A stretch of 64,000 nucleotides of DNA, taken from Christensenella massiliensis. Its GTDB lineage: Bacteria > Bacillota > Clostridia > Christensenellales > Christensenellaceae. The translations under genes were made by a program, and so were the position numbers. The notes beneath the pieces were generated by a model. That model saw only the letters and a list, made by a program, of their open reading frames with translations. It ran no database searches and was not told the DNA's origin. This document shows, in pieces, positions 25,867-46,348 of this stretch. Location: contig LT700187.1 of assembly GCA_900155415.1 (NCBI GenBank), forward strand, positions 2,294,001 through 2,358,000, written 5' to 3'. Numbering within the stretch: position 1 is the stretch's first letter; each line of letters begins with the position of its first letter.

Positions 25867-27576
25867 CTACCCATCCAGCGCTTTCTTGATCTCCCGTGCG
25901 TTTCGACGTAAATCGCCGGCGTATTTTCTTGAGCTCGCCGTTTCTATTCCGCCTGCCAAACGTGCGATCTCATCTGTTGCCTCCTCTTCCGTAAGCCGCG
26001 CTACCGTAGTATGAGTCGCTCCTTCCTCCACGTATTTGCGAATCAAAAAATTTGCATCTGCCATCGCTGCGATCTGCGGAAGATGTGTCACGCAAATAAC
26101 TTGGCGCAGTCTCGCGATAGATGCCATTTTTTCAGAAACGACCAATGCCATTTTGCCGCTGATCCCCGTATCGATTTCGTCAAAAATCAAAGTAGAAATA
26201 TCATCCAGCCCCGCCGATATATTTTTGAATGCCAGCATAACGCGTGAAATTTCTCCTCCTGACGCGATCTTGGAAAGCGGCCTTAGCGGTTCTCCCTCAT
26301 TTGTAGAAAGATAAAATTCCACTTCGTCTATTCCGCTTTTTTTCCACGGCGAAGCTTCTCTTCCCGGCAGCGGAGCAAAACGCGCTTCAAAATCTGCTCC
26401 CGGCATTCCTAAATCCGCAAGCTCTTTTCGGACCTGCCGTTCTAATTTTTCAGCAGCTTTTCTCCGCGCTTCTGAAAGTGTCGTATATTCCGTGTATAAG
26501 GCGTCCTGAAGCTTTTGGATCTCCGCCGTCAGCCTATCTGCTTCTTCCTCCGCATTTTGCAGTCGTTCCAGTCTTTCCCGCGCTTTCTCACAAAACGCAA
26601 GAACTTCCTCTTCCGTGTTTCCATATTTCCTTTTTAAGGCGCCAATCTGTTCGATCCGCTCCTCGATCTCTATTTGCCGTTGCTCATCAAAAAAGACATT
26701 CTCCGAAAAATCCCGCAGGTCATGCGCGCATTCTTCCAAAATAAAAGCGCTTTCTTGAATCCGCTCCAACAGCTTTCCGTAAGCTTCGTCATACATAGAC
26801 ACCTGCGATAGCTGCCGGATCACATCTTGAATCAGAGAAAGCGCGCTGCCGCCTTCATCTCCGCCCATATAGAGTTCTGCATATCCGGCGGAAAGCGCCT
26901 GCATGATTGCCTGCGCGTGATTTAATTTTTCTCTTTCCTCCCGCAAGGCGTCTTCTTCCCCTTTGGAGAGCTGTGCCTCTTCGATTTCCTGTACTTGAAA
27001 AGCAAGAAGCTCTGCATCTCTGGCGCGCTCTTTTTCGTCTCCGCCTATTCCGGCAAGCAACTTCTGCTTCGATATAAGCGATTCATAAAGCTCTGATATG
27101 CGTAAAACAAGCGTCTTTATCTTCTCTCCGCCATAGTTATCGATAAATGAAAGATGATTTTTTGCATAAAGAAGCGACTGATGCTCGTGCTGCCCGTGAA
27201 GATCCACAATTCTATCCATCAATGCTTTTAATGTTGACAGACTGACTACCACGCCATTCACTCTGCATACATTCTTTCCGGTGATAGAAAGGTCTCTCGA
27301 AATAATCAATTCATCATCGGCATCCAATTCATTTTCCATAAAAAAATCTGAAAACGCATTGGAATCGATATAGAGCTCCGCCTCAACATGCGCCTTTTCC
27401 TGCCCGCTCCTGATCAACTCCCTGTCAGCACGTTCTCCTAACAGAAGGTTCATGGAATCTACTATGATTGATTTTCCGGCGCCGGTTTCGCCCGAAAGTA
27501 CATTGAGTCCCTTCACAAAATCGATATTCAGTTCATCGATCAACGCAATGTTTCTGACCGTCAGACTCTGTATCAT
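25867..27576 (-). CDS. recN: DNA repair protein RecN
   Basis: 569-residue SMC-like ATPase of double-strand-break repair. Walker A is in VLSGETGAGKSIIVDSMNLLLGERA (cited as GETGAGKS, near residue 30), coiled-coil arms span about 155-370, the signature LSKIASGGEISRVMLAFK follows, and Walker B is in TLIFDEIDTGISG. The length is typical. It lies between argR and spo0A in the conserved Firmicutes order and has 12 bp to spo0A, leaving no room for spoIVB. Confidence 0.96.
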   Translation of the reverse strand: MIQSLTVRNIALIDELNIDFVKGLNVLSGETGAGKSIIVDSMNLLLGERADRELIRSGQEKAHVEAELYIDSNAFSDFFMENELDADDELIISRDLSITGKNVCRVNGVVVSLSTLKALMDRIVDLHGQHEHQSLLYAKNHLSFIDNYGGEKIKTLVLRISELYESLISKQKLLAGIGGDEKERARDAELLAFQVQEIEEAQLSKGEEDALREEREKLNHAQAIMQALSAGYAELYMGGDEGGSALSLIQDVIRQLSQVSMYDEAYGKLLERIQESAFILEECAHDLRDFSENVFFDEQRQIEIEERIEQIGALKRKYGNTEEEVLAFCEKARERLERLQNAEEEADRLTAEIQKLQDALYTEYTTLSEARRKAAEKLERQVRKELADLGMPGADFEARFAPLPGREASPWKKSGIDEVEFYLSTNEGEPLRPLSKIASGGEISRVMLAFKNISAGLDDISTLIFDEIDTGISGKMALVVSEKMASIARLRQVICVTHLPQIAAMADANFLIRKYVEEGATHTTVARLTEEEATDEIARLAGGIETASSRKYAGDLRRNAREIKKALDG

Positions 27577-27592
27577 TATGTGTCACTTTCTT

Positions 27593-28045
27593 TTATCTGT
27601 TTATCATCTTTGCAAAACGTTCTGCGATATCATCCGCCGCCTGCTCTGATGTCGTTGCGATAAAAATCGTATTATCCCCTGCCAGAGTTCCCAATATGCC
27701 GTTGTAATGGAAACTGTCCACGACTTCCGCAGCTGCATTGGCGCTGCCTGTAAGCGTCTTGATCACAACAAGATTCATGGCGCTGTCGATCGATAAAACG
27801 GTATCCCTGAATATCCGCATCAGCACGTCCATGTCGTTGCCTCTGTTTTTTTTATTATCTGCATATTTATACGCACCCGATGAAGATTGTACCTTGATAA
27901 GATGAAGCTCCTTAATATCACGCGAAATAGTCGCCTGCGTTACTTTATAACCGGCTTCATTCAGCAGAGCCACAAGCTCTTCCTGCGTCTCCACTTCATT
28001 ATTTTCAATAATTTCAATAATTTTATTTTGTCTTTTGGATTTCAT
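27593..28045 (-). CDS. argR: Arginine repressor
   Basis: 150-residue ArgR/AhrC. The N-terminal winged helix includes QEELVALLNEAGYKVTQATI and SRDIKELHLIKV. The C-terminal domain binds arginine and forms hexamers (VIKTLTGSANAAAEVVDSF, LGTLAGDNTIFIAT). It represses arginine synthesis and activates catabolism. It sits in the conserved tlyA-nadK-argR-recN neighbourhood. No arg genes are in the window. Confidence 0.96.
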   Translation of the reverse strand: MKSKRQNKIIEIIENNEVETQEELVALLNEAGYKVTQATISRDIKELHLIKVQSSSGAYKYADNKKNRGNDMDVLMRIFRDTVLSIDSAMNLVVIKTLTGSANAAAEVVDSFHYNGILGTLAGDNTIFIATTSEQAADDIAERFAKMINR

Positions 28046-28057
28046 ATAATACGGCTC

Positions 28058-28900
28058 CTATTTTTTCGGTACGCTCCACTGCGCAAGCTTATCTTTCAGC
28101 TGCGGAAAAAATGTATCATTTGTAAAACGCAAAAATCTTGCCTTGATATCCGACCTGCGTATCATGACCTTGTCGGCTTCGCTCAAATACTGCAATTCCT
28201 GTCCGTCCGCAGAAAAGGTTACATTTTCTTCTCCGGCATGAGGCCGCACCATGATCGTATCGCTGAATTTCGTCACGATACTGCGCGCATATAGAGAATG
28301 CGGACACATCGGCGTAATCAAAATGCAATTTACATTGGGAGCAATGATCGGACCGCCGGCGGACAAAGAATAGGCTGTAGAGCCGGTCGGCGTCGCTACG
28401 ATAAGCCCGTCCCCGTTATAAAACTCCGCAAGCGTTCCATTTACATAAAGGTCAAGCTTCACCATTCGGGTACGGTTGATTTTGGTAATAATAAAATCAT
28501 TGAGTGCCAAAAGCTTCGAACACTTTCCGTTGATACTCGCTTCAAGCATCATGCGCTCGTCGATCACATAATCACACTCTTTAATATGACGAATCATCTT
28601 ATCAATATCCGAAAGGTTTATCTCACTCATAAATCCTAAATGCCCGATATTGATCCCTACAAGCGGCAGTCCATAAGAAACATACTTGCGCGCAGCACGC
28701 AGGATCGTTCCATCGCCGCCTAAAATAAAGAGCGCATCTGCTTTCGCCGCATCCCGATACCTTTCCAGCCCCAAAAGCGCCGCTGTTTCCGCATCGTAGC
28801 AGATACTGCAGTCTGCCATTTCCAGCGCTTCAATCACTTTTCGGGTCGCATGCAGGCCCGGATCCTTATCTTTATTTGTATACACCCCAATGTTCAGCAT
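28058..28900 (-). CDS. nadK: NAD kinase
   Basis: 280-residue NAD kinase, making NADP from NAD. The conserved LGGDGTILRAAR (GGDG) is near residue 78, with VGINIGHLGFMSEI, VATPTGSTAYSLSAGGPI and TPMCPHSL following. It is the first gene after the promoter at 28937-28965 and leads argR-recN-spo0A-punA. Confidence 0.96.
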   Translation of the reverse strand: MLNIGVYTNKDKDPGLHATRKVIEALEMADCSICYDAETAALLGLERYRDAAKADALFILGGDGTILRAARKYVSYGLPLVGINIGHLGFMSEINLSDIDKMIRHIKECDYVIDERMMLEASINGKCSKLLALNDFIITKINRTRMVKLDLYVNGTLAEFYNGDGLIVATPTGSTAYSLSAGGPIIAPNVNCILITPMCPHSLYARSIVTKFSDTIMVRPHAGEENVTFSADGQELQYLSEADKVMIRRSDIKARFLRFTNDTFFPQLKDKLAQWSVPKK

Positions 28901-28966: not shown

Positions 28967-29761
28967 TTAATTTAACGCTTTATGCGCCGCCTGTACAACC
29001 GTGCCAACATCTATGTTTTCCTGAGCTTCCGTTGAAGACGAAGTGGAAAAAAACGCCAGATACTCGATATTTCCATTTGGTCCTTTTATTGGAGAATACG
29101 TAAGCCCACGCAAAAACAGCCCATATTCCTGCGCGCTTCGTATAACATTTTCAATCACGGTCTCATGCACGCCCGCATCACGCACTACCCCTTTTTTCCC
29201 TACGTGCTCTTTTCCGGCTTCAAACTGCGGCTTGATCAGGGTGACGATTTGCGCCGCCTGTCCAACAAGGCGTAGGATAGCCGGAAAAATCAGTTTCAGC
29301 GAGATGAATGAAACGTCCACGCTTACAAATTCAACAGTCTTATCCTGCCTTTCAAGATATCGGGCGTTGGTTCTTTCCATCAGCTGAATCCGTTTATCGT
29401 TTCTCAGTTTCCAGTCAAACTGCCCATAGCCTACGTCTACCGCATAAACAAACGCTGCACCGTTTTGCAGCATACAGTCCGTAAATCCCCCCGTAGACGC
29501 TCCAATATCCATGCATGTTTTGTTCTCCAAACAGATCCTGAATTCCCGAATCGCCTTTTCGAGTTTCAGGCCGCCCCTGCTTACATAGGGACATACATGG
29601 CCTGTCACTTCTATCTCTATATCCGTTTCATATTGCTCGGATGGACTTTTTACTATATGCCCGGCGGCCTTTACCTGTCCGGCTATAATGAGCGTTTTGG
29701 CTTTTTCCCTGCTCGGTGCCAATCCGTTTTCAAAAACCAATACGTCGATCCTTTTCTTCAT
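28967..29761 (-). CDS. tlyA: TlyA-family rRNA 2'-O-methyltransferase
   Basis: 264 residues. The N-terminal S4 domain (RIDVLVFENGLAPSREKAKT) is followed by an FtsJ-like SAM methyltransferase with MDIGASTGGFTDCML and a KDKE-type catalytic set (LIKPQFEAGKEHVG). Members methylate cytidines in 16S and/or 23S rRNA; some are annotated as hemolysins. It overlaps oapA by 4 bp. In other OLE-bearing genomes this gene also adjoins the OLE/oapA locus. Confidence 0.94.
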   Translation of the reverse strand: MKKRIDVLVFENGLAPSREKAKTLIIAGQVKAAGHIVKSPSEQYETDIEIEVTGHVCPYVSRGGLKLEKAIREFRICLENKTCMDIGASTGGFTDCMLQNGAAFVYAVDVGYGQFDWKLRNDKRIQLMERTNARYLERQDKTVEFVSVDVSFISLKLIFPAILRLVGQAAQIVTLIKPQFEAGKEHVGKKGVVRDAGVHETVIENVIRSAQEYGLFLRGLTYSPIKGPNGNIEYLAFFSTSSSTEAQENIDVGTVVQAAHKALN

Positions 29762-30294
29762 CCTTTATCCTTTCCTCCGGAAAAAAAATTGGCAATAGAT
29801 CCAATCGCAAGCACGATATCCTTATTTCTTTTTAAGGCGATCGTTTTTCCCCACGCTTTACCCGCTACTGTCGCCGCTGCGATCAGTGCCGATATCGCAA
29901 TGGAAACGACAAGATCGGGAAACGGGAAATCGAACACCAAGGCTTTCAGCGTGATCGAGGCCCCGGCCGCACCGCTGACGATCCCGCAAATATCTCCTAT
30001 CACATCATTACAGAAGTTCGAAACCACATCTGCATTTTTCAGCATTTTGAGTGCAGAATGAGCCTTTTTATTTTTTTTTGCAGACATCGCGATAAACGGC
30101 GCTTGATCGCAGCTTGCAAAAGCAACGCCGACAATATCAAACACCACGCCAACAGCGATCAAGGCTGCCAAAATGCCTATCGATGCCAAAAGCGATAGAT
30201 TGGAAATAAAATATTCCGCAGCGACGGAGACACCTGCGGAAATAAAAAGGGTCATAAAAAAAATTTTGATCGTCCAGTGTTTGATTACCTTCAT
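29758..30294 (-). CDS. oapA: OLE-associated membrane protein OapA
   Basis: 178 residues, strongly hydrophobic, with about four membrane segments: near 10-25, 33-60 (LLASIGILAALIAVGVVFDIVGVAF), 98-118 and 125-150. It has the conserved central stretch VVSNFCNDVIGDICGIVSG with Asp89 and Asp97 forming a D-x7-D pair. OapA is known to dimerise and bring OLE RNA to the cell membrane. Identification rests on size, topology, the Asp motif and its place immediately downstream of the OLE-like RNA and upstream of tlyA. I start at ATG 30294, six bases after GAGG; the ATG at 30324 has no ribosome site and falls next to the RNA's 3' end. Confidence 0.85.
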   Translation of the reverse strand: MKVIKHWTIKIFFMTLFISAGVSVAAEYFISNLSLLASIGILAALIAVGVVFDIVGVAFASCDQAPFIAMSAKKNKKAHSALKMLKNADVVSNFCNDVIGDICGIVSGAAGASITLKALVFDFPFPDLVVSIAISALIAAATVAGKAWGKTIALKRNKDIVLAIGSIANFFSGGKDKG

Positions 30295-30331
30295 GGTTTT
30301 CCTCTGTCTATCAAACAAACTCATTCATATA

Positions 30332-30914
30332 TGGTGGCGGCAATAAGGGTAGACCTTGCAGTATATGGTCCGGTAGGATTTCCCCACAGACTACTTCCCG
30401 TCGCCGAAAGAAGCGGTTTCCCTTAAAAGCCTGTGATGCGGCGTTGCCGCGCGCATGACCAGATTGCCTGTTCAAACCACACTATAATCCCCTTATTGCC
30501 TGAATACAACAGTCTAGGAGCTTTCCTCAACAGCACAAGTTCCGGTTCCTAGTCTCTTTTGCCAGCATGGTTTTTTACGGTCGTGCTTCCGCTGCCCGTA
30601 CGCTGCAAACGGTTCGCAGTTTATCCCGCATTTTCCACCAAGCCAACTCAAGGCAGGCTACTCTGTACACAGCTTAATACCGCATAGCAGGTTTTTCCCT
30701 GTCCAGTAATCATGCTTACCACCGAAACAGGTCTCCGCGAAAGCTGGGTCAACGCCCATATGCCCTTATGGATCGCCCTTCTTTCTTAACTCCCAGCATC
30801 AGCCCCCGACGGGGCGTCAGCAGCCAACACCAGAAACTTCATCGATGTGCCCTATAACGGATTTTTAGGCCCGTCTTCGGAACCGGCAGTACCGACTAGA
30901 ATACTGCGCCACCA
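30332..30914 (-). ncRNA. ole: OLE RNA (ornate, large, extremophilic RNA)
   Basis: A 583-nt gene-free block between recA and oapA. On the minus strand its ends form a perfect 8-bp helix, TGGTGGCG (5' end, complement of 30907-30914) with CGCCACCA (3' end, complement of 30332-30339). The inside is rich in GC stems, such as GCCCC/GGGGC at 30802-30815, and has no long ORF. OLE RNAs are about 600 nt, highly structured, occur in anaerobic and extremophilic Firmicutes, and are encoded directly upstream of oapA near tlyA, argR and recN; all of this fits. OLE forms a membrane ribonucleoprotein affecting tolerance to cold, alcohol and Mg2+ and carbon-source use. The ends are taken from the terminal helix, not measured. 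Confidence 0.85.
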
Positions 30915-30955
30915 AAACTTAATTCCTTATTCTATGTGCAAGGTTCACAAAGGAC

Positions 30956-31990
30956 TTATTTTTCTTTGCCGTTTTCTCCCTGCAGCTCCATATCCTTATA
31001 TTTCCCCAACCCATAGGTCTTGAGCACTTGCTGCTTTACTTCTTCCATTATGTCAGGATTCGCCATCAAATATTGCCGTGCATTGTCTCTGCCCTGTCCG
31101 ATATGCTCCCCATTATAAGAGAACCACGCACCGGACTTTGTGATCAGTCCGAGCTGCGTTCCCAAATTGAGTACGCTCGCCGGTTCACTGATCCCCTCTC
31201 CGTAATAGATTTCAAACTCTGCTGTTTTAAACGGCGGAGCCACTTTATTTTTAACGACTTTGATCCGCGTCCTGTTTCCGATCATCTGGTCGCCTGCCTT
31301 AATGGTTTCGATCCTCCGCACATCAAGACGTATCGATGCATAGAATTTAAGCGCTTTTCCGCCGGTCGTTGTCTCTGGATTTCCAAACATAACACCTATT
31401 TTTTCGCGCAGCTGATTGATAAAAACAACAACTGTATTCGTTTTATTGATCGCACCCGCGAGCTTGCGCAATGCCTGTGACATCAGGCGCGCCTGTACGC
31501 CCACGGAAGAATCTCCCATCAAGCCTTCTATCTCTGATTTCGGAACCAATGCCGCGACCGAGTCTACTACAACGATATCGATCGCTCCGCTTCTCGTCAA
31601 CATATCAGCAATTTCAAGCGCTTCTTCGCCGGTGCTCGGCTGCGATACATATAGATTATCGATATCGACTCCCAAATTTTTTGCATAGACCGGGTCGAGC
31701 GCATGTTCGGCATCAATGAAAGCCGCTGCCCCTCCAAGCTTCTGCGCCTCTGCGATCATATGCAGCGCTACAGTCGTTTTACCGGAAGATTCCGGACCAT
31801 ATACCTCTATGATCCTTCCCCGCGGAACTCCGCCGATCCCCAGTGCAATATCGAGTTCCAAGCAGCCTGTTGGTATCGCCTCGATATTCATATTTTTGGA
31901 CGCATCACCTAATTTCATGACCGCGCCCTTTCCGAATTGTTTTTCAATCTGTGCCAAAGCCGCATCTAAAGCTTTTTCTTTGTTATCCAT
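30956..31990 (-). CDS. recA: Recombinase RecA
   Basis: 344 residues, the usual length. Walker A is GPESSGKTT near residue 66, Walker [10 protein letters not shown], the L1/L2 DNA-binding region [42 protein letters not shown] (described by its ends MSQALRK and PETTTGG), and the family signature ALKFYASIR. It drives homologous recombination and the SOS response. It starts 18 bp after pgsA, with no promoter or LexA-type box in the gap, so it is read from the upstream ftsK operon. No terminator separates it from the OLE RNA. Confidence 0.97.
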
Positions 31991-46023: not shown

Positions 46024-46348
46024 TAGTTTCACCCCCGGAATTAGCGTAATATTTGTCCATCGCACTCTGCGCAAACTGCGGACACACTATTCCTATGACT
46101 TTATTATTTGGTTTATGGAAGCTTGCCTCCAAAATACCGCGCTCTTCAAGAATGACGAGCCGTATACGATAATAAGTGCAAGCATCCATGATTGCTTTTT
46201 TTGTATTTTCGGAAGCGCTGCCGTCTAATATCACAAGCTTCGCTTTCCCCTTTTTTACCGCCTGTTCTACGGCCTGCATACCATACACGATTTTTCTTGC
46301 ACGCGCAGCAAGTCCTAAAAATTTAAAAAAACTCTCATGCGTTGCCAT
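46010..46348 (-). CDS. ylxQ: L7Ae-family RNA-binding protein YlxQ
   Basis: 112-residue ribosomal L7Ae/L30e/S12e-family protein, a kink-turn RNA binder of the nusA-infB operon. It has [18 protein letters not shown] at the start and the [19 protein letters not shown] stretch near residue 35. The exact target of YlxQ is unsettled. It overlaps ylxR by 14 bp and infB by 14 bp. Because OLE RNA is known to bind an L7Ae-type kink-turn protein (OapC), this small protein is of extra interest here, though it is normal for this operon even in species without OLE. Confidence 0.93.

Follow-up and report, generated by a model that had tools for sequence, protein, structure and literature searches.

The window analysed here, the whole 64,000-nucleotide stretch of Christensenella massiliensis DNA, carries on its minus strand the genes ftsK, rimO, pgsA, recA, OLE, oapA, tlyA, nadK, argR and recN in this order (Table 1). 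A sequence-only reading of the same DNA had placed an OLE RNA between recA and oapA and had proposed a search with the Rfam OLE model, RF01071. That covariance-model search gave a highly significant match in this place (436.5 bits, E ~1e-125; the gathering score is 50), and the 611-nt match covers all model positions from 1 to 616, so that the RNA is full length with its conserved blocks intact. No other Rfam family passes its threshold in this stretch, and OLE is present in one copy in the 2.56-Mb single-contig genome (99.9% complete). The interval given earlier for the RNA, 30332-30914, indeed holds no ORF of at least 60 aa; it marks the right element but trims it to the terminal helix, and the Rfam match is wider at both ends. 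The coding strand, which the earlier note did not give, is minus. The spacing between 30332 and the oapA start is 37 nt rather than the 38 nt reported before, and 27 nt separate the recA stop from the OLE match. The locus is thus a genuine and ordinary full-length OLE; the individual locus is new, and the class is well described. Among the papers searched none names both Christensenella and OLE RNA, and the Christensenella copy was very probably already caught by a published GTDB-wide survey (PMC11332333).

Table 1. Positions in the window of the OLE gene, its structural elements and its neighbours, with the OapA homologues of relatives that have no detectable OLE
Feature	Position, locus or genome	Strand	Evidence or remark
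OLE RNA gene (ole), full length	30318..30928	minus	RF01071, 436.5 bits; single genomic copy
Terminal helix, 5' arm	30907..30914	minus	exact complement of 30332-30339
Terminal helix, 3' arm	30332..30339	minus	exact complement of 30907-30914
Palindrome CGUACG in the apical loop L9.3 (predicted kissing site of the homodimer)	30597..30602	minus	invariant in six Christensenella OLEs
recA, immediately upstream of OLE	30956..31990	minus	TIGR02012, 558.5 bits
oapA, 178-aa membrane protein, OLE partner	29758..30294	minus	homologues, invariant residues, weak CNNM match, fold
tlyA	28967..29761	minus	TIGR00478, 262.6 bits
nadK, usual OLE neighbour	28058..28900	minus	Pfam NAD kinase domains
argR, usual OLE neighbour	27593..28045	minus	NF001680 above cut-off
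recN-like ORF, 569 aa, usual OLE neighbour	25867..27576	minus	sequence recognition and conserved position
OapA homologues without detectable OLE	L047-L058, L061		f6, f8, f29, G148

The two arms of the terminal helix (TGGTGGCG at the low-coordinate end and CGCCACCA at the high-coordinate end) are exact reverse complements over 8 bp, and among the six Christensenella OLEs this helix has undergone two compensatory changes, U-A to A-U in G005 and U-A to C-G in the window. The perfect terminal helix of the sequence-only reading is therefore upheld by exact pairing and by two compensatory pairs among six congeners. Its description of the region as rich in stems also stands: the minimum free energy (MFE) of the minus strand has a z-score of -2.16 (2 of 100 shuffles are as good) versus -0.48 for the plus strand, so that only the minus strand is more structured than expected by chance, and both sides have changed at 26 of the 200 pairs of the consensus fold of the six Christensenella OLEs. 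In size, whole secondary structure and conserved blocks the RNA is the same as the full-length OLEs of H. halodurans and C. acetobutylicum, and it most likely adopts the known OLE structure.

The oapA gene lies immediately downstream of OLE on the same strand. OapA homologues were found in 92 of 151 related genomes and adjoin OLE in dozens of them; the best named relative of the window protein is that of Christensenella intestinihominis, and identity is 83-91% within the genus and about 30-60% outside the family. Asp53, Asp97, Gly100, Asp101, Gly108, Lys146 and Lys150 are invariant in the aligned set, the three aspartates in 62 of 62 alignment rows (the window protein accounts for two of these rows). 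The D-x7-D pair (Asp89, Asp97) that had been picked out as a motif is not conserved as such, since position 89 is Asp in 25 and Glu in 26 of the 62 rows; the invariant pair is Asp97/Asp101. In the published OapA mutant PM1 the residues D100 and D104 are changed (PMC9723947), and this spacing of four is that of D97/D101 in the Christensenella protein and does not fit D89/D97.

A longer, 188-aa reading of OapA has no Pfam or NCBIfam match at 1e-3, and the 178-aa protein matches CNNM with E = 6e-4 and 19.9 bits, below the Pfam cut-off of 28.4. No domain other than this weak CNNM was matched in it, so the protein does not have the combination of CNNM, CBS and CorC_HlyC that marks the CNNM/MpfA family; 18 of 24 aligned OapA homologues have a CNNM match with E of at most 1. 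A sequence search against the PDB returned nothing useful. The AlphaFold model (pLDDT 82, pTM 0.70), however, has CNNM/CorC Mg2+ transporters as all of its top six Foldseek matches in the PDB (7m1t, 7m1u, 7cff and 7cfg among them), with probabilities of 0.89-1.00, TM-scores of 0.44-0.58 by query length and weak Foldseek E-values of 0.014-0.65, and it has no other credible PDB match. OapA thus shares a predicted transmembrane fold and weak sequence similarity with the CNNM/CorC/MpfA Mg2+ transporters, and differs from them in its size of 178 aa, its lack of any further domain and its score below the Pfam cut-off. Homologues beside OLE, the CNNM match and the CNNM-like predicted fold all confirm the earlier naming of the adjacent membrane protein as OapA, and we regard it, as judged from sequence and model, as an ordinary OapA orthologue with a predicted CNNM-like fold. 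The sequence-only reading had named two outcomes that would refute it, the lack of a significant covariance-model hit and a neighbouring membrane protein other than OapA; both were checked, and neither occurred.

Downstream of oapA, whose end tlyA overlaps by 4 nt, tlyA, nadK, argR and the recN-like ORF follow in order, in keeping with the earlier statement that OLE genes lie near tlyA-argR-recN. The H. halodurans / C. acetobutylicum type of OLE shares both the downstream oapA and this tlyA-nadK-argR-recN neighbourhood. The Christensenella OLE lies directly behind recA, whereas the setting differs in other families of the order, where oapA is found between ispA-type and dxs-type ORFs (judged by size and position). 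Neither a promoter-like nor a terminator-like site was found at the recA-OLE junction on the minus strand, which makes co-transcription of recA and OLE likely, and OLE would then be transcribed from the minus strand, probably as part of one operon recA-ole-oapA-tlyA-nadK-argR-recN. The region immediately precedes oapA and has the same orientation, and no terminator-like site was found between them on the minus strand; could it then be a long structured cis leader that regulates oapA in a riboswitch-like manner, and not a free-standing RNA? We consider this quite improbable, because the region is a full-length match to a class that in H. halodurans is a separate, abundant RNA of ~630 nt (PMC9723947), and because OLE and oapA are on different contigs in relatives such as G030, G047, G078 and G129, whose assemblies are fragmented.

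A free-standing Christensenella OLE would most likely pair with a second copy of itself by a kissing loop at L9.3, where the palindrome CGUACG is present in 6/6 OLEs of the genus and replaces the GGCC that is common in OLE. We take this palindrome to be bridge B3 of the cryo-EM structure. In that structure, from C. acetobutylicum, L9.3 forms a symmetric kissing loop, and relatives have GAUC or AGCU in place of its GGCC (PMC12286853). The L9.3 palindromes of other OLEs in our set are GGCC, AGCU or GUAC, and GUAC occurs also in a different family (L030). Palindromic 4-mers are present in 81 of 96 L9.3 loops versus a shuffled mean of 42, a contrast that is inflated by related sequences, so that the count is not an independent-sample test; exceptions include L011, L031, L041 and L113. 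The MFE fold of the window's own RNA has another palindrome (UGCA) in the L9.3 loop, and the genus-like fold with CGUACG in the loop is 0.7 kcal/mol above it.

Genes for further OLE partners were looked for in the whole genome. An 82-aa L7Ae-type protein (the oapC-type gene) is encoded directly before rpsL, which is also where ybxF (OapC) lies in B. subtilis, and S21 (rpsU; bS21) is encoded as well (E = 2.5e-23), so that, judged by homology and position, the OapC and bS21 partner genes are present. The only KOW matches in the genome are L24, in a ribosomal-protein cluster, and NusG; OapB therefore appears to be absent, in which Christensenella differs from the H. halodurans / C. acetobutylicum type. 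OapB is present in about 60% of OLE genomes and is thus optional (PMC11332333). A second L7Ae-type protein is encoded in the window (46103-46321, minus strand) between YlxR-like and IF-2-like ORFs.

A full-length CNNM transporter (462-aa frame) is encoded in the same genome outside the window (G000:C1:1848832-1849416), and 6/6 Christensenella genomes have such a transporter and thus possess a protein of CNNM type besides OapA. Christensenella thereby keeps OLE and a CNNM transporter together against a general anticorrelation of the two, which has been published (PMC11332333) and which is also seen in the order (transporters in 24 of the 77 genomes with OLE versus 62 of the 74 others; naive Fisher p = 5e-11, relatedness ignored).

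We put at about 85% the joint probability that a full-length OLE RNA is encoded here, that it has OapA, OapC and bS21 as partners, that it forms a dimer and that it has a role in ion handling and stress. Points that weigh against this reading are the failure to find OapB, the full-length CNNM transporter in all six genomes of the genus, the weak Foldseek E-values, and the lack of a promoter-like or terminator-like site at the recA-OLE junction. OLE family membership, covariation, the identity and fold class of OapA, and the oapC-type and rpsU genes were all found here directly. By analogy with the published Halalkalibacterium and Clostridium OLE work, RNP assembly, membrane location, dimerization and a stress function may be expected as follows: OapA, a short CNNM-type relative of Mg2+ exporters, would tether OLE to the membrane, OapC and bS21 would join as further partners, and the assembly would most likely modulate growth under stress and the handling of divalent ions that depends on OapA.

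The host belongs to a genus of human-gut anaerobes (Clostridia, Christensenellales) that is mesophilic and not extremophilic, so the earlier statement that OLE belongs to extremophilic and anaerobic Firmicutes applies here as regards anaerobes but not as regards extremophiles. A mesophilic gut genus with a CNNM transporter also contrasts with the H. halodurans / C. acetobutylicum type of OLE host. Such a host, the absence of ole-oapA from sister genera and the failure to find OapB in the genome might point to a decayed, non-functional relic of OLE, but the match to the model is full length, the conserved blocks are intact, compensatory changes have occurred within the genus, and oapA is intact with all of its invariant residues; a relic is hardly credible. 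Few structured bacterial RNAs that lack a known biochemical function are, to our knowledge, as large as OLE. Christensenella can be cultured and, as a genus of the human gut, offers a non-extremophile OLE system.

The RF01071 search found OLE in 77 of the 151 relatives and in 6/6 genomes of the genus Christensenella, and the sister genera are without ole-oapA. Christensenellaceae that have no OLE show an empty ole-oapA site, with tlyA as the next gene after recA (L151, L152 and L156), and in G006 the recA stop even overlaps the tlyA start. Since recA runs straight into tlyA where OLE is missing, in this family the pair is present or absent between recA and tlyA as a unit, whether by gain or by loss. 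Presence or absence at one clean site within one family could serve to separate the role of the protein from that of the RNA.

Near-perfect co-occurrence of OLE and OapA has been published, and is the RNA in fact found wherever the protein is? The first search left 15 genomes in which an OapA homologue (E below 1e-19) was found and OLE was not: six of the seven genomes sampled from f6, two of f8, four of f29, and G114, G118 and G148. G114 and G118 were not counted as orphans, their oapA genes being on short contigs of fragmented assemblies; the 789-nt OLE and interrupted oapA of G009 were likewise ruled out as insertions, as they contain runs of N in the assembly. A permissive-filter cmscan of the oapA regions of the OLE-less genomes found no OLE, and a whole-genome OLE search to E = 10 found nothing in any covered genome, while the same query matches the 77 relatives above. 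In f6, f8 and G148 the gap between oapA and the ORF before it is 31-91 nt, which leaves no room for an adjacent OLE. The invariant residues are kept in the orphan OapA proteins. These lineages look like exceptions to the published co-occurrence, unless their RNA has diverged beyond the model.

Compatible with the identity of the Christensenella RNA as OLE, then, is a more tentative account in which OapA alone is the ion-handling unit and OLE a supplementary regulator, lost in several lineages. OapA might on this account be a stand-alone divalent-ion protein and OLE its detachable dimeric regulator, with oapA possibly kept in its original operon position after loss of the RNA; Christensenella would, just as tentatively, be a genus that keeps both, and that in addition has a CNNM transporter and a dimer loop of altered sequence. 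The orphan genes of f6, f8, f29 and G148 speak for it, as do the residues that they retain and an OapA tree that needs about four changes. On the other hand, many branches of that tree are weak, the Rfam model could miss an OLE that has diverged strongly, and in H. halodurans deletion of OLE and deletion of OapA have phenotypes in common (PMC9723947), so that we think it possible and favour the joint OLE-OapA assembly described above. The locus itself is routine, and attention is due above all to the exceptions to OLE-OapA co-occurrence; lineages with oapA and no OLE could likewise part the function of OapA from the contribution of OLE. G068 and G149 have two OapA copies each. The first adjoins OLE and the second (L062 and L063) an L20-leader-like element, and it is with these second copies that the f29 orphan OapAs group in the tree.
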